Source: a virus. Taken from it: a DNA stretch of 54,453 nt. The stretch lies in the IMG/VR virus record IMGVR_UViG_3300046455_000446, positions 1 to 54,453 of that record; one strand, written 5' to 3'. Below are positions 2-22,062 of the stretch, one piece after another (within the stretch, counting starts at the first letter, position 1; each line of letters starts with the position of its first letter). The notes under the pieces are model-generated. The model was not told the DNA's origin, did no database searches, and saw only the letters and a program-made list of their open reading frames with translations. Made by a program: the position numbers and the translations under genes.

Positions 2-133
2 GCTGCCGAGATTAAATTCGCACTCGCACTTAAAGAGATGAATATGGAGATAAGGCAGCGAGAACCTGGGATGCAAACAACAATCCGCGTGAACTCCATC
101 AGCGCAGACTGCCCCATCTACAACCCAATCTGA
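2..133 (+). CDS. 3' end of tail-associated protein (second copy of the end of 53428-54438)
   Basis: This fragment encodes the last 43 residues of the 336-residue protein at 53428-54438 and is present only because the contig ends overlap. It should be merged with that gene when the circle is closed. Two bases separate its stop from the next start at 136. Confidence 0.9.
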   Translation, partial: AAEIKFALALKEMNMEIRQREPGMQTTIRVNSISADCPIYNPI

Positions 134-148
134 CTATGCCAGGCTTTC
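2..148. repeat. Terminal redundancy, left copy
   Basis: Bases 2-148 match 54307-54453. The only difference is position 22 (A here, G at 54327), a synonymous GCA/GCG alanine codon. The copy spans the end of one gene and the start of the next, so it most likely reflects contig circularity rather than a physical terminal repeat. Confidence 0.95.
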
Positions 149-717
149 GCGGCGAAATTACCCAACCCACGTCCAATCTAGGCGTGGGTAGCTACGCGAT
201 AAACGCGGCTATTCCGGGATTGTCCGGGTTAACTAAAAGCGCAACCGACATCATCAGCAACCTCCTCGGTGGCCTGCCCAGCGCGGACCAGGCGCGACAG
301 GAGAACGCGTACTTTGGCGCCGGTAGTGGCCTTGACCCAACCAGCGATTTCCTGCGCAACCGTGGATATGATTTGTATGGCCAGAAATCGGAGCAGCGCA
401 AACAGACCGGGCTACAGGATTTGCTATCGTTGATTGGTGGCTATTCCGGCACGGTTGCGCCGACTCCAGGACAGCAGATTGGCCAACAAGAGAGCCAGGC
501 TGACCGTGCCCAGCGCGCGTCAGAGGCGGCTATGCAGAACGCTTTGGCTACCCGCGGCCAGGATTTCCAGGAGAACAGCTACTGGGGCATTACTCCTAAA
601 GGCGTGCCCAGCTTCTGGGATATTCTGAATGGCATGGGTGGTCCGCAGGATGTGCACGAAGGTCAGATGATTGACCCGTATAGCCAACTTGGGAAGCTCA
701 TCCCTTATAAACCATAG
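136..717 (+). CDS. Virion-associated hypothetical protein, 193 aa
   Basis: I do not recognise a named domain. The protein has a small apolar N-terminal part (about residues 15-45), then a polar Gln/Arg-rich middle with an RNRGYDLYGQ stretch near residues 75-85. It lies between the tail protein genes and the giant internal protein gene, so a role as a small virion or head-tail protein is likely by position. The start is two bases after the stop of the previous gene. Confidence 0.75.
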   Translation: MPGFRGEITQPTSNLGVGSYAINAAIPGLSGLTKSATDIISNLLGGLPSADQARQENAYFGAGSGLDPTSDFLRNRGYDLYGQKSEQRKQTGLQDLLSLIGGYSGTVAPTPGQQIGQQESQADRAQRASEAAMQNALATRGQDFQENSYWGITPKGVPSFWDILNGMGGPQDVHEGQMIDPYSQLGKLIPYKP

Positions 718-17217: not shown

Positions 17218-17402
17218 GTCTGCCGTAGCCTCTCATGTTCAGGCTTGGCCAGCCACGCTATAAATTTCGCCTTTGAGATGGCCCGGTATTTATCCTGCAT
17301 CTCGGAGTAAGCCTGCCAGTATTCGGCGCTGCCCTTGTGGTGGTCGTGTTGGCGGCAGAACTCCTCCCATAGGTCCATCCAGTCTGGTCTAGGTTTGGGC
17401 AT
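17214..17402 (-). CDS. Small hypothetical protein, 62 aa
   Basis: A helical protein rich in Trp, His, Lys and Glu (DWMDLWEEFCRQHDHH). I chose the ATG at 17402, which overlaps the glycosyltransferase gene end by 14 bases. The longer frame from 17549 would lie inside that gene. Unknown function. Its stop is coupled to the next gene (ATGA). Confidence 0.55.
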   Translation of the reverse strand: MPKPRPDWMDLWEEFCRQHDHHKGSAEYWQAYSEMQDKYRAISKAKFIAWLAKPEHERLRQT

Positions 17403-18213
17403 TGGCGGTTTGTGCTGCGTTCCATTCTTTCCATTCCCTGGTGCGTTTGTCTTTCGGCTCAGTCCGGTCAGGTGTTGGTATCCGAATTCCTCCAGTGGTG
17501 AATTGTCCGTCTGGGTTTGGGTCCAGCTTGGGCTTGCTCGCCTCATCAATCAGCGCACTCAGAAGAACGGCCTGCTTGTCGTGGTGCAAGAGCACCGCAT
17601 TGTCCCGTATCAGCTTGCGGTCAGTCTCAGCCGTGAAGGCCAGTTGCTGGAGCAGCTTGGTTTTCTCGGCGCGCGGGACAATCATGGACGCTGCGGCTAT
17701 CTCAAACGGAACCTTTCCGGCTGCAAACTCTTTCAACTCACCACCGGCACCGCGCGGGTAGATGGCAACACGGCTGAGCGAGCGGGTCTTGCCGTCAGGA
17801 CTGGCCAGGATGGAGCCGAGGTAGCGTTTAGGTTGGTTCCAATATGCTTCCGTTAGTTCGTCCAGCCACGACGCCTTTAGTGGCACCGCATCGCCTTCCA
17901 ACCACAGGAAAGGCCACTGGTAACAACGGGCCGCGTGTGTGGCCGCACTGTAGAACAAATAATTCACCGCCTCTGTCTTGCTGGTATGCGCCACTGCCGG
18001 CCACGGCACGGCCAGCAGCTCTACAGACTCAAAGGCTACTTCAGCGGCAATCTTAAGCTTGGTTGTTGTTTCTGCATGCAAATCTGGAGCGGCAGCAATC
18101 AACAGATGACCTCGAGGCTGCTTGTTGTTTTGAATTGCAATTAGGTCCAATAATCGTTCGCCTTGGATTGCATCGTTCGCAGATACGCCAAGGACTACTA
18201 ACAATTTTTCCAT
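17389..18213 (-). CDS. Putative glycosyltransferase, 274 aa
   Basis: Residues 103-112 (LWLEGDAVPL) carry an acidic donor-site motif of the type seen in phage GT-A-like transferases, followed by WLDEL. The N-terminus LLVVLGVSANDA is an alpha/beta start. It differs from the three transferases at 7.9-12.2 kb and may act on a different substrate. It follows the beta-prime-like gene with a 16-base overlap. Confidence 0.65.
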   Translation of the reverse strand: MEKLLVVLGVSANDAIQGERLLDLIAIQNNKQPRGHLLIAAAPDLHAETTTKLKIAAEVAFESVELLAVPWPAVAHTSKTEAVNYLFYSAATHAARCYQWPFLWLEGDAVPLKASWLDELTEAYWNQPKRYLGSILASPDGKTRSLSRVAIYPRGAGGELKEFAAGKVPFEIAAASMIVPRAEKTKLLQQLAFTAETDRKLIRDNAVLLHHDKQAVLLSALIDEASKPKLDPNPDGQFTTGGIRIPTPDRTEPKDKRTREWKEWNAAQTANAQT

Positions 18214-18440
18214 AAGCCTTTCATAATCTTCACCAGCCTTAACGTATGCAGCGTGAGATGGACTGCGTTCTTGATGCCCATGTGCTGATAGTCGCAGGCC
18301 AGCCAGTCAGCCATTTCGCGTTCCTGTTCATTGTCGCTGGGATGGACCAGCGTGCATTCGGTTCGGCAGACGATGCAGCGCACACCACGGAACTTTAGCC
18401 GGTGAAGATGGCCACAGTAACATTGCCATGGCGAGGTCAT
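18198..18440 (-). CDS. RNA polymerase beta-prime zinc-binding-domain-like protein, 80 aa
   Basis: Cysteines 7, 9, 22 and 25 form CX1CX12CX2C, exactly the spacing of the N-terminal zinc site of bacterial RpoC (Cys70, 72, 85, 88 in E. coli). Within this site RLK (14-16) and RGV (18-20) and the following E and T also match: 13 of 26 aligned positions by my reading. The rest (helical, residues 38-75) is not clearly RpoC. In bacteria this domain contacts nascent RNA and is the target of phage factors such as HK022 put RNA and Nun. The protein could mimic or replace that surface. The match is seen, the role is inferred. Confidence 0.65.
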   Translation of the reverse strand: MTSPWQCYCGHLHRLKFRGVRCIVCRTECTLVHPSDNEQEREMADWLACDYQHMGIKNAVHLTLHTLRLVKIMKGLWKNC

Positions 18441-18533
18441 CTAGGACTTCCGACAACAAGTAAACCACATAACTGTTGCACCCATGGCCCAGCCCACGCC
18501 AAAAGCGATGATGATGTCCCATGGCGAGGTCAC
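18441..18533 (-). CDS. Mini membrane protein, 30 aa
   Basis: Read directly from the sequence. A GTG start at 18533 overlaps the upstream stop as GTGA, and the TAG at 18443 is immediately followed by the next ATG (18440). The product is one membrane segment (IIIAFGVGWAMGATVMWF) with a CCRKS tail. Its first five codons encode MTSPW, the same as the beta-prime-like gene that follows, so the two starts share a 14-base identity. It could be a holin-like or inner-membrane regulator. Confidence 0.6.
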   Translation of the reverse strand: MTSPWDIIIAFGVGWAMGATVMWFTCCRKS

Positions 18534-18916
18534 TTGGTTTGCCAGCAAAAATCTGGGGCAGTAAGTTTTTCTTCGTCTGTCAGTTCAGCACGAACCCTAT
18601 CCTGTGGTTCATGAATTTTCAGCTTTAGAGCGCAGCCGCAAATGGCACAGGTTTTCAACTGCTGTTCTCCATTCACTTGCAGGCCTAGTTTGTTTTTTAT
18701 GCTCAGATATTCCTTGATGGCCAGCGCCACCCCTGTAGTAAGCATGACACCATCTGTATTCCACTCACACGGGACGCCTGATGGATTCCTGCCCAGGCAT
18801 ATATCAGCCCGCGCCTGTGCTGTCTGCTGGTCCACCACCTCGCCACCGCTGCCCAGCCACTTGCTGATGACCGCCACGCCATGCGGGATGTGTTTGGCTT
18901 GCTCCAGAATACTCAT
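18530..18916 (-). CDS. Hypothetical protein with CxxC, 128 aa
   Basis: The protein has an ADICLGRNPSGVPCEWN segment (about 37-53) and a TCAICGC knuckle (about 88-94), giving four cysteines that may bind one zinc. I do not recognise the family. It is coupled to neighbours on both sides (ATGA upstream, GTGA downstream). Confidence 0.65.
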   Translation of the reverse strand: MSILEQAKHIPHGVAVISKWLGSGGEVVDQQTAQARADICLGRNPSGVPCEWNTDGVMLTTGVALAIKEYLSIKNKLGLQVNGEQQLKTCAICGCALKLKIHEPQDRVRAELTDEEKLTAPDFCWQTK

Positions 18917-19233
18917 GGCTGTGCTGGCTTAAAATCACGCATCATCGTCCGTAAGGCAATTTGCGCCCAGCGTGGAGGCGTGCCCATCATCGCTTCCCAC
19001 TTGCGCCAGGTGTCGTACGGCACGTTTAGGGCACCAGCCGCTTCCTTGCCTTGCAGGTTCCACTTCTTGCGAAACTCCTGAAGCTCCTTGCGCCACAGGC
19101 TTCGCTCCATTTCTGCCCGGATGCCGCCACGTTCGTTCCTGGGAGTGGTCAGCCAGTGATGTTTGGCGTCCTTTAAGGTGGTCCCGGTGGACCGAGCGTA
19201 GGAGCGTAGAAGTTTAGCTGTGCGGCCGTTCAC
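18913..19233 (-). CDS. HTH-type DNA-binding protein, 106 aa
   Basis: Residues 55-90 (FRKKWNLQGKEAAGALNVPYDTWRKWEAMM) look like a helix-turn-helix of the XRE or small-terminase kind: helix, AAGALNVPYDTW turn, recognition helix. The N-terminal part is basic. It may be a transcription regulator of the adjacent divergent capsid promoter, or a small terminase subunit. Context does not decide. ATGA coupling at both ends. Confidence 0.55.
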   Translation of the reverse strand: MNGRTAKLLRSYARSTGTTLKDAKHHWLTTPRNERGGIRAEMERSLWRKELQEFRKKWNLQGKEAAGALNVPYDTWRKWEAMMGTPPRWAQIALRTMMRDFKPAQP

Positions 19234-19502
19234 TTGAATTCCTTGGTCGCAACTATCCTGACAAGCTCCATGTATTCAACGATTCTGCATTTGCAGTTCG
19301 CCTCGTTTATTTCTCTGTGCCGACGACTGTAAGGAATTTCTCGGGCAAACCACCAGCGGCCACCCCCTAATTTTTCCAGTGCAAACCATTTGTCTTTGAT
19401 GCGGTACGTTACCCCAAGGAGTTTTACGGTGCGGTTCTTCACTGGCCATTCTTTACACCCACTGACCGACTCAGCACAAGCCTTAATTTGCCCCGCTCTC
19501 AT
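19230..19502 (-). CDS. Hypothetical protein, 90 aa
   Basis: A small basic protein with an RWWFAREIPYSRRHREINEANCKCRIVEY core. No known domain. It is the first gene of the minus-strand run to 16846, and its promoter must lie in the 288-base divergent region shared with the capsid gene. Confidence 0.6.
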   Translation of the reverse strand: MRAGQIKACAESVSGCKEWPVKNRTVKLLGVTYRIKDKWFALEKLGGGRWWFAREIPYSRRHREINEANCKCRIVEYMELVRIVATKEFK

Positions 19503-19790: not shown

Positions 19791-21077
19791 GTGTACGATG
19801 AAAAATTCCTGGAGGACTATATAAGCATCATGGTGAACGAGCCCTTCATGGGCCGGCACCAAACGCGCACCTGGGAGGACGGCAAGGATGAGCTGTTCTA
19901 TGACAAGGTGCACGTGCAGCAACCCGATTACCTGACCCCGTGGCAGCGTATTCGTGCTGGCTCCGGTGATGCCGGCGACCCTGAGTGCGGCAATCCCTGT
20001 GAACCGCCGCGGACATTGGTTGGATTCGGCACGACCCGGGACAGCGCCTTCATGCAACAGAAGGACCTGCAATCCCAGCCGTGGTGTCTCCAGCAAATGC
20101 GCGGTGTGCCCCACATCGGCCAGCAGATTGCCGAGATTTACAAAATCCTGCGCATGATGCCGACCGCCTTCATCGGTGATTTCCTGCGAACGCGCTTCAC
20201 CAGCTACCACGATACCCTGCAAATCGCCGGCTCAAGTGTGGCCACATTCGCCATCACCTCGGCCAACACGGACGAGAACCTGACGACCATTAACCTTGGC
20301 TCCACAGCCAACCTGCCTACGTCCAAGTTGACCCTGACTTACCTCGAGTACCTCAGCCAGCAACTGGGCATGAACGGTTACGACCAGAACAGCGGGCTCC
20401 CGGCCGGGATGCGCAATCTCGTCACCCACAGCCGCACCTATCAACAGTTGGTCGGCACCAACCCCGAGCTGCGCAGCCAAATCTATCCGCAGGCCATCGG
20501 CGCCCTATCCCCGCTCTACAAGGTGGGCGTCGGCCTCAACGCTGACCCGTTTGGCCCATGGTCGCCCACGTTCGATGAGAAGCAGGTGCGCTTCCAGACT
20601 AACGGCAACGGCCTGCTCCAGCGCGTGCTGCCTTACCTCAACACCACAGCCACCACTGGCGGCAAACCCATCGTTAACCCAGCCTGGTTTAACGCGCGCT
20701 ACGCCATCAGCTACATTCTGCATCCCAAAGCCGCGATTCTCTACACGCCAGCACCCAAGAAAATCCATGAGTCCGTGCCCAGTGTTAACACGGCCATGTT
20801 TGGGAAATGGCGCTTCGTCAACCCCGAAGGCCTCATCCAGTGGAGCAACCCAGACGGAACCACCTGCACAAAACAGAACGATATGCAGTTCTGGTTTTAT
20901 TGGTTGTGTCACCTCGAGGCGGGGTTCCGCTACGACCAACGCGAGTTGGTAATGCCCATACTCCACTTGATTGATGGAGCTGGCGCAAGCTGCATCGTCA
21001 ACGAACCCGCCTGCGGGTCGGCACCTGCTTACGTCGTACAAGACTACACGGGCGAACCCGTAATGTGCGAAGAGTGA
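19791..21077 (+). CDS. Major capsid protein candidate, 428 aa
   Basis: The length suits an HK97-fold capsid subunit. A helix-rich N-terminal arm (residues 1-100) is followed by alternating beta segments, Gly/Pro/Asn-rich loops and a C-terminal HLIDGAGASCIV domain. No enzyme motifs are present. It is monocistronic between a structured leader and a strong terminator, as expected of a highly expressed capsid gene. The GTG start at 19791 has no ribosome site. The ATG at 19830 has GGAGGA upstream with 13-base spacing and would give 415 residues. No other gene in the genome is a better capsid candidate. Confidence 0.65.
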   Translation: MYDEKFLEDYISIMVNEPFMGRHQTRTWEDGKDELFYDKVHVQQPDYLTPWQRIRAGSGDAGDPECGNPCEPPRTLVGFGTTRDSAFMQQKDLQSQPWCLQQMRGVPHIGQQIAEIYKILRMMPTAFIGDFLRTRFTSYHDTLQIAGSSVATFAITSANTDENLTTINLGSTANLPTSKLTLTYLEYLSQQLGMNGYDQNSGLPAGMRNLVTHSRTYQQLVGTNPELRSQIYPQAIGALSPLYKVGVGLNADPFGPWSPTFDEKQVRFQTNGNGLLQRVLPYLNTTATTGGKPIVNPAWFNARYAISYILHPKAAILYTPAPKKIHESVPSVNTAMFGKWRFVNPEGLIQWSNPDGTTCTKQNDMQFWFYWLCHLEAGFRYDQRELVMPILHLIDGAGASCIVNEPACGSAPAYVVQDYTGEPVMCEE

Positions 21078-21089
21078 AATGAAATACGC

Positions 21090-21124
21090 ATCGCGGGCGC
21101 TGGTAACTCGGCGCCCGCGATTTT
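21090..21124. terminator. Rho-independent terminator after the capsid gene
   Basis: A perfect 11-base stem (21090-21100 with 21111-21121), nearly all G/C, a 10-base loop, then TTTT on the plus strand. It ends the capsid mRNA 13 bases after the stop and lies exactly at the 3' end of the minus-strand HNH gene, so it may end both. Confidence 0.85.
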
Positions 21125-21918
21125 CAAACCTTTGGATATTTACTTGCAACCACATGACAAAAATTAACGAATTCAGCGTGTGTCATGTCGCTTTTGTAAC
21201 GGTTGCAATTCCAGCTAACCCATTGAAGATTTCCAATTTCGTTTGTGCCCCCTCTGCTTCTTGGGGTTTTGTGGTCAATGCTTGCGTTTCCACCAAGAAT
21301 AAGGTCGCTTCCAGTGTAAGCGCATTTGTTGGATTGCTTTTCCAAAAGAGTCTTAATCTGGCTCCACAGTTTAGAATCTCCAAGCCATCTTCGTGCAGCG
21401 GTTTTGAAAATACACACGTCGCAATACAGGCACGTAATGTTTTTGGGTCTTCCGCATTGGACACATTTGCCGGCATCGGCGAACTCCGACCTTCTTCGCT
21501 TGCTGTTTCGCCTCATCTCTTGTCGGCATTGTTTGCAAGCCTTGTATTTGCTGTCTCGTTTCCCAGCGCATCTAGCGCAATGTTGGCTCAATGGTCTGTT
21601 GTGCCATTTTTCTCTTTGCTTGGCCTTGCAGGCATCACAGTTCTTCGTTGCTCCAGACCAAGCGATGCCACAATCAACACAGCGACCATTTTGATTGGCT
21701 TCAGCCCTGATTCTTTTGTTGCCTTGAACCGTTTTTGTTGTGCATTCATGGCATCTGCGCGTTCCTTTCGGATTTGGTTTTTTACAAACAACACACTTGC
21801 CTTGAGCCATCAATTTGGCCGCATGTTTCGCGCTTTTATTTCGGTAGTCTCTACAGCCATCAAAAACCGGGCCAGAACCATGGCGGACGATATTAACCAT
21901 TTCCAATTGGTCGCTCAT
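21124..21918 (-). CDS. HNH endonuclease with zinc-knuckle array, 264 aa
   Basis: Residues 40-165 carry about seven CxxC pairs (CVVCKK, CHEC, CVDCG, CDAC, CARC, CKQC, CVQCG and others). The HNH core is near 215-245 (SIDHKTPRSRGGTNEIGNLQWVSWNCN). It is an orphan homing endonuclease placed downstream of the capsid gene on the other strand. A long plus-strand frame across it is its mirror, not a gene. Confidence 0.85.
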   Translation of the reverse strand: MSDQLEMVNIVRHGSGPVFDGCRDYRNKSAKHAAKLMAQGKCVVCKKPNPKGTRRCHECTTKTVQGNKRIRAEANQNGRCVDCGIAWSGATKNCDACKAKQREKWHNRPLSQHCARCAGKRDSKYKACKQCRQEMRRNSKRRRSEFADAGKCVQCGRPKNITCLYCDVCIFKTAARRWLGDSKLWSQIKTLLEKQSNKCAYTGSDLILGGNASIDHKTPRSRGGTNEIGNLQWVSWNCNRYKSDMTHAEFVNFCHVVASKYPKV

Positions 21919-22062
21919 AACAAGAAAACACCCGCCGCTTTTGAAGTGAAGTGCGCTGGTGATGGCGCCAACAAAAGCAACGGGCGTAAATTTAACTGTT
22001 TCACCATTTTTGCGGCCACTTCAAGGCCACAGCCAGTCTAACAATTCACCCAAGGAACACAA

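Follow-up and report, generated by a model that had tools for sequence, protein, structure and literature searches.

A Putative Free-Standing RpoC-Type Zinc-Binding Module Encoded in a Small-Gene Array of an Unclassified Virus

Virus Record and the Array of Small Genes

The question raised by this locus is whether an 80-aa ORF of an unclassified virus encodes a detached copy of the zinc-binding domain (ZBD) of the RNA polymerase β′ subunit (RpoC) and, if so, what such a protein could do. The DNA analyzed (hereafter, the window) was the entire IMG/VR record IMGVR_UViG_3300046455_000446, with a length of 54,453 nt and a GC content of 53.7%, in which no terminal repeat of 10–199 bases was found. 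The genes of the window were phage-like and included those for an Erf-type annealing protein, a RecE-like exonuclease, DNA methyltransferases, and several HNH endonucleases, along with a weak large-terminase match (E-value = 0.0046); by its general appearance, the source virus looks like a phage. Recognizable structural genes were almost absent, and most of the large ORFs (1538, 976, 797, 577, 428, and 397 aa) had no PHROG match of weight. For the probable capsid-region protein (19791–21074, 428 aa), no relative was found in viral_contigs or in phages at the sensitivity used. Downstream of this probable capsid gene, a 320-aa plus-strand ORF (21079–22041) lay antisense to a 264-aa minus-strand ORF (21124–21918), which matched endonuclease VII/HNH PHROGs (E-value = 3.7e-16) and had an HNH domain at its C-terminus as well as roughly seven CxxC pairs; the minus-strand ORF looks like the real gene of this pair.

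The 80-aa ORF (18198–18440, minus strand) was the fifth gene of an array of six small, close-packed genes, which ran on the minus strand from 19502 to 17389 and in which neighbors either overlapped (by 4 or 16 nt) or abutted. The first gene (19230–19502, 90 aa) had no match, whereas the second (18913–19233, 106 aa) had a weak Aca2/YdiL-like match (E-value = 0.0064, under the curated cut-off) and also matched phrog_8898 of unknown function (E-value = 3.4e-5). The third (18530–18916, 128 aa) carried the motifs CAICG and FC near its end and had no family match of weight. The fourth (18441–18533) encoded a hydrophobic 30-aa product, VTSPWDIIIAFGVGWAMGATVMWFTCCRKS, and overlapped the preceding gene by GTGA; this product is probably membrane-spanning, and its gene is coupled to that of the zinc module. 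The sixth gene (17389–18213, 274 aa), which shared 16 nt at its start with the end of the 80-aa ORF, was glycosyltransferase-like by eye only, with no family match of weight and no relatives found in the search. PADLOC returned no match for six proteins from the array and its edge. It should be noted that a 14-nt sequence, TGACCTCGCCATGG, was repeated at 18426–18439 and 18519–18532 (minus strand), at the starts of two successive small genes, as a result of which both proteins read TSPW after the start residue. Its candidacy as a regulatory element was dropped, as two copies within 2 mismatches appeared in 10 of 100 shuffles.

The 80-aa ORF consisted of 80 codons and a stop codon, starting with an ATG directly abutted by the TAG of the preceding gene, with GGAAG located 6 nt upstream. 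Translation of this ORF might be doubted, because its codon usage score did not exceed that of its other frames, a measure that is uninformative alone at such a length. However, the close packing of the array, the coupled start, the upstream GGAAG, and the similarity to RpoC described below argue against an untranslated ORF, as does GC content by codon position (0.52/0.40/0.65), since a low second and a high third position are the pattern of most genes in the window. Absence of translation is accordingly considered highly improbable.

Resemblance of the 80-aa Protein to the β′ Zinc-Binding Domain

The N-terminus of the protein, CYCGHLHRLKFRGVRCIVCRTECT, contained the zinc-ligand motif C7-X-C9-X12-C22-X2-C25 (CX1CX12CX2C; 18366–18422, minus strand), a spacing that was unique among the six reading frames of the window. 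Residues 2–31 aligned without gaps to β′ residues 55–84 of PDB sequences (T-W-CYCG---R--F-G--C--C--E-T), and within residues 5–30, WQCYCGHLHRLKFRGVRCIVCRTECT, the gap-free matches to E. coli-type RpoC were C, CG, R, L, K, R, G, V, C, C, E, and T. The sequence-only reading of this DNA, which had pointed to the cysteine spacing together with RLK, RG(V), E, and T at positions matching RpoC, was confirmed by this alignment. The RLKFRG segment (residues 14–19; 18384–18401, minus strand) was aligned with the RNA-contacting tip of E. coli β′, namely, R77-L78-K79 and R81-G82.

A search of PDB sequences with the 80-aa protein yielded a best E-value of 0.0022, and RNA polymerase β′/γ subunits made up 59 of the best 60 of 67 matches (E-value ≤ 10). 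All four NCBIfam matches were RpoC or RpoC1 families (best E-value = 9e-4). This near-exclusiveness of RpoC in both databases supports a detached ZBD. In addition, PHROG 25354 (1216 positions, function unknown) was matched (E-value = 0.0027) at its positions 55–84, that is, in the RpoC register. Over the 26-residue module, 8–13 residues were identical to each of 20 RpoC sequences (20 of 42 distinct segments, less than 90% alike), and identity was 41% in the module and 26% in the following stretch, a concentration that likewise supports the detached ZBD.

The only Pfam entry matched by the 80-aa protein was DUF7567 (PF24451), at 14.8 bits compared with a gathering cut-off of 27, and the match covered the same cysteines. 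This sub-threshold match is attributable to the RpoC-like module, because real RpoC zinc segments, used as a control, matched DUF7567 equally weakly. Among 14 control genomes, DUF7567 was matched in six and exceeded the cut-off in one; in cells, this family may thus represent a further stand-alone zinc protein of the RpoC-like type.

Second Free-Standing Copy and the Search for Relatives

A strict DNA motif pattern matched one stretch in viral_contigs, which encoded a 61-aa free-standing protein, MTWLSCGCGKYQRLKFRGIICPLCQLEVKAKKQYSEESTTFWLSMKAHLNGNWFHELRKRF (IMGVR_UViG_3300047678_000095, 128–313, minus strand; hereafter, L002). Its start lay in an ATGA overlap with the preceding ORF, and its best PDB match was RpoC (E-value = 1.9e-5, query without the start codon). 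The contig, 17.8 kb long and with a GC content of 43%, was a fragment from a different virus and carried genes for a TROVE-type RNA-binding protein (phrog_850), a sigma factor (phrog_1740), and, judged by eye, a ribonucleotide-reductase-like protein. The two free-standing proteins matched each other with an E-value of 1e-5; otherwise, no protein match between the two records was better than 0.004. The occurrence of a second copy in an otherwise unrelated record supports the detached-ZBD reading.

Both proteins started just before the zinc module (MTW... in L002). The RLKFRG segment was identical in the two, and 12 of the 26 module residues were identical in all, while most of the other non-cysteine positions of the module differed. 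In L002, identity to the same RpoC sequences was 51% in the module and 22% in the following stretch. The tails, including the 50-aa tail of the 80-aa protein, showed no resemblance to one another or to RpoC (shuffle fractions 0.77, 0.84, and 0.82). A second conserved segment, E....WL....H, seen by eye in both tails, was dropped (shuffling, 0.77).

The invariant β′ flanks IFGPxKDxE and VRRERMGHIELA were absent from both free-standing proteins, and neither of them matched PF04997. This family matched three of three bacterial RpoC segments (E-values from 6.5e-9 to 2.6e-10) from residue 2 or 3 to residue 55, including the stretch VRRERMGH, which follows the zinc site and is missing from the 80-aa protein. 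The similarity of the latter to RpoC spans only about 26 residues, and this limited extent, with tails devoid of any similarity, argues against the detached-ZBD reading. So does the replacement of a tyrosine: the position that we take to be Y75 of E. coli β′, presumably an important residue, is Leu12 in the 80-aa protein and has been kept as Tyr in L002. On the basis of its sequence, the 80-aa protein is probably homologous to the β′ ZBD.

Of 398 genomes sampled evenly from one phylum, 368 were matched by a profile built from the two proteins; among the matches listed, the frame was at least 571 aa long in all but one (186 aa), as expected for RpoC, which supports the detached-ZBD reading. In 11 genomes picked for their RpoC hits, the best match lay in a frame of 502–1447 aa (10 of 11) or in a frame-broken RpoC (1 of 11). 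Another pattern matched 12 stretches in viral_contigs: free-standing L002, four β′-like stretches, three of which (L003, L004, and L010) were near-identical 353-aa frames and one (L007) a 1029-aa frame, and seven stretches that look like chance. A further pattern matched five, namely, L002 again and four chance-like stretches. Pattern and relative searches of viral_contigs, tblastn against phages, and tblastn against plasmids (20 of 60 records) left L002 as the sole credible second free-standing copy; hits in Gordonia phages were dropped, being antisense to annotated genes. The genome_contigs pattern scan yielded at least 118 stretches, and those among the matches listed comprised 117 RpoC sequences (intact or frame-broken) and one chance match (L027); this listing neither finds nor excludes free-standing copies. 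At an E-value ≤ 3e-10, a threshold that catches close relatives only, there was no free-standing copy in 395, 396, and 378 sampled genomes. All viral scans together gave one other copy, too few for a measure of purifying selection, and this extreme rarity counts against the detached-ZBD reading.

Assessment of Chance Resemblance and of a Split Polymerase

The RpoC profile was constructed from 49 distinct zinc segments (110 of 118 stretches were usable). All of these segments lacked Gly after the fourth Cys because the scan pattern was biased, and the profile may therefore favor the free-standing proteins; the PDB and NCBIfam results are free of this bias. The 80-aa protein scored 24.8 bits and L002 scored 37.1 bits. 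None of 10,000 full shuffles of the 80-aa protein reached 24.8 bits, nor did any of 10,000 with the cysteines fixed or of 10,000 with the cysteines and the CG glycine fixed (best shuffle, 22.4 bits); the score of L002 was likewise reached by 0 of 10,000 shuffles in each of the three designs. The runner-up among the 880 scored stop-to-stop ORFs of the window reached 6.2 bits. In a same-spacing comparison, 18 ORFs with CXCGX11CXXC were found and scored, from 21 sources: nine without any other sign of kinship scored at most 15.1 bits, seven annotated or apparent phage β′ proteins scored 12.9–91.7 bits (24.4 three times, in near-identical copies), and the other two were the 80-aa ORF (24.8 bits) and L002 (36.3 bits). 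The score of 24.8 bits therefore makes the module of the 80-aa protein as RpoC-like as several real phage polymerase subunits. The same cysteine spacing occurred in two virus ORFs of 103 and 120 aa between stops (L143:2628–2693 and L008:2100–2156, both on the minus strand), which had borderline scores on this profile (15.1 and 13.0 bits, respectively).

The shuffle and same-spacing controls support the detached-ZBD reading, and the resemblance of the 80-aa ORF to RpoC is, as a property of its sequence, in excess of chance. That a small zinc ribbon without kinship to the ZBD resembles it by coincidence is suggested by the shortness of the match and by the fact that the E-values of the 80-aa protein are only of the order of 1e-3, but such a coincidence is quite unlikely given the shuffles with cysteines and glycine fixed, the gap between the controls (≤15.1 bits) and the protein (24.8 bits), and the independent copy L002. 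The earlier proposal that the protein reproduces the RpoC zinc module is thus upheld at the sequence level by the PDB and NCBIfam searches, both sets of controls, and the second copy.

The module could also be the split-off N-terminal piece of a phage multisubunit RNA polymerase. Phage β′-like proteins carry the same spacing, with the above scores of 12.9–91.7 bits, and L002 weakly matched phrog_2987, a β subunit of RNA polymerase (E-value = 0.011). However, the catalytic motif D-x-DGD was absent from the six frames of the window, the Pfam domains RNA_pol_Rpb1_2 and Rpb2_6 were found in neither record (both may be incomplete) compared with 14 of 14 control genomes, and none of the 55 scanned ORFs of the window matched a PHROG family named as an RNA polymerase subunit. 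The absence of all of these makes a split multisubunit polymerase very unlikely.

Predicted Structure

AlphaFold2 with a two-row alignment gave a model with a pLDDT of 43, and addition of 20 RpoC rows, L002, and one phage β′ row raised it to 58 (about 70 at residues 21–30). The latter model had a predicted hairpin (residues 12–15/19–22) followed by two helices; the RpoC rows bias the model towards RpoC, and the hairpin was predicted only when they were in the alignment. A Foldseek comparison of the low-confidence models with PDB and BFVD gave nothing significant, and VIA-align of a low-confidence model found one chain to align, with Z < 2. At this level of confidence, the models carry too little weight for the superposition on the RpoC zinc domain that the sequence-only reading put forward as its refuting test; being poor and matching no ZBD, they count against the detached-ZBD reading.

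Proposed Function

We take R14-L15-K16 of the 80-aa protein to be the equivalent of R77-L78-K79 of E. coli β′. In the put RNA structure described in PMC9378689, these three β′ residues are located at the fork of the RNA, where R77 is wedged between two bases and L78 and K79 lie next to it, and mutations within the ZBD that block put are cited there; the statement of the sequence-only reading that put RNA binds the RpoC zinc module is supported by these data. The accompanying statement that Nun targets this domain did not find similar backing in the passages searched, since zinc is mentioned once in the paper on the Nun-elongation complex (PMC5386594), in the reference list, in connection with the zinc motif of Nun itself. 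The roles that the sequence-only reading suggested for a free-standing copy, namely, a decoy, an antitermination partner, or an inhibitor of host transcription, are candidate functions. According to PMC8666675, SuhB, Q, the lead ribosome, Rho, and RapA use the β′ ZBD as a platform. Conservation of the put-contacting RLK tip (PMC9378689) supports the detached ZBD, and the platform role of the domain (PMC8666675) supports its engagement of a ZBD ligand.

The leading proposal, with a probability of about 40%, is that the 80-aa protein represents a ZBD detached from β′ and acts as a mimic or competitor by engaging a ZBD ligand, be it exiting RNA or a factor of termination or antitermination. According to this proposal, a phage would have turned a copy of the β′ ZBD into an independent gene, the product of which, with its four cysteines, would fold as a ZBD hairpin around one zinc and would present the same tip surface as RNA polymerase. 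The protein would then bind a ZBD partner of the RNA exit channel, such as structured RNA, Rho, a Q/SuhB/Nus-type factor, RapA, or the lead ribosome, and competition for this partner would change termination or host transcription in favor of the phage. The tail, predicted to be helical, may contribute a dimer interface or one more contact site.

As a single mechanism, a soluble ZBD tip competing for exiting RNA or factors appears the most likely, with a simple zinc scaffold only slightly less so. In the latter case, the module, derived from RpoC or convergent, would serve only as a small and stable scaffold that binds phage nucleic acid or a phage protein and is unconnected with transcription in the host. 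Phages commonly encode small zinc proteins, the two copies have completely different tails and come from phages that are otherwise unrelated, and the 80-aa protein has not retained Y75, all of which make the scaffold a serious, if tentative, alternative; against it stands the exposed tip RLKFRG, which is identical in both copies, in contrast to the majority of the remaining non-cysteine positions in the module. The more specific version of the detached-ZBD reading, in which phages lifted the ZBD tip from host RpoC as a free decoy for exit-channel RNA or factors and thereby switch termination, coupling, or recycling, is rather unlikely; Rho, Q/Nus-type factors, RapA, the ribosome, and structured RNA are its candidate partners. 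According to PMC9908020, the Thermus ZBD enters the Rho ring and deletion of the ZBD leaves Rho-dependent RNA release unaffected, which weakens a decoy directed at Rho.

As described in PMC9378689 and PMC8666675, many partners meet RNA polymerase at the ZBD, among them put RNA, Q, SuhB, Rho, RapA, and the leading ribosome. Its tip as a natural soluble protein would be a minimal reagent for establishing which ZBD contacts matter. If the detached-ZBD reading is true, it would represent a viral strategy in which part of the polymerase is copied instead of the polymerase being bound, a strategy undescribed in the open-licence PMC papers searched.

Comparison with Known Systems

The β′ ZBD itself is known; within the searches made, the putative new element is the ZBD as a small stand-alone phage protein, which was found neither in the phage and plasmid sequence searches nor in the open-licence PMC literature. 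Among the known phage factors, put, Q, and Xp10 P7 act at or beside the ZBD, P7 contacting it among other parts of the enzyme (PMC6624301), and P4 Psu acts on Rho; HK022 put, Q, Xp10 P7, and P4 Psu bind RNA polymerase or Rho from outside, and none is described in the passages searched as a copy of the ZBD. The RpoC ZBD (approximately residues 70–88 of E. coli β′) has in common with the 80-aa protein the CX1CX12CX2C spacing, CG, R-L-K, R-G, E, and T, whereas the 80-aa protein is free-standing, without the β′ flanks and all catalytic domains. The β′-like subunits of phage multisubunit RNA polymerases (for example, Vibrio phage Va2, Goslar, and L007) are phage-encoded and have the same zinc spacing; unlike the 80-aa protein and the 61-aa L002, they sit in frames of 353–1029 aa. 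L002 shares with the 80-aa protein the organization of a small coupled gene, whereas the tails of the two proteins and the viruses that encode them are unrelated.
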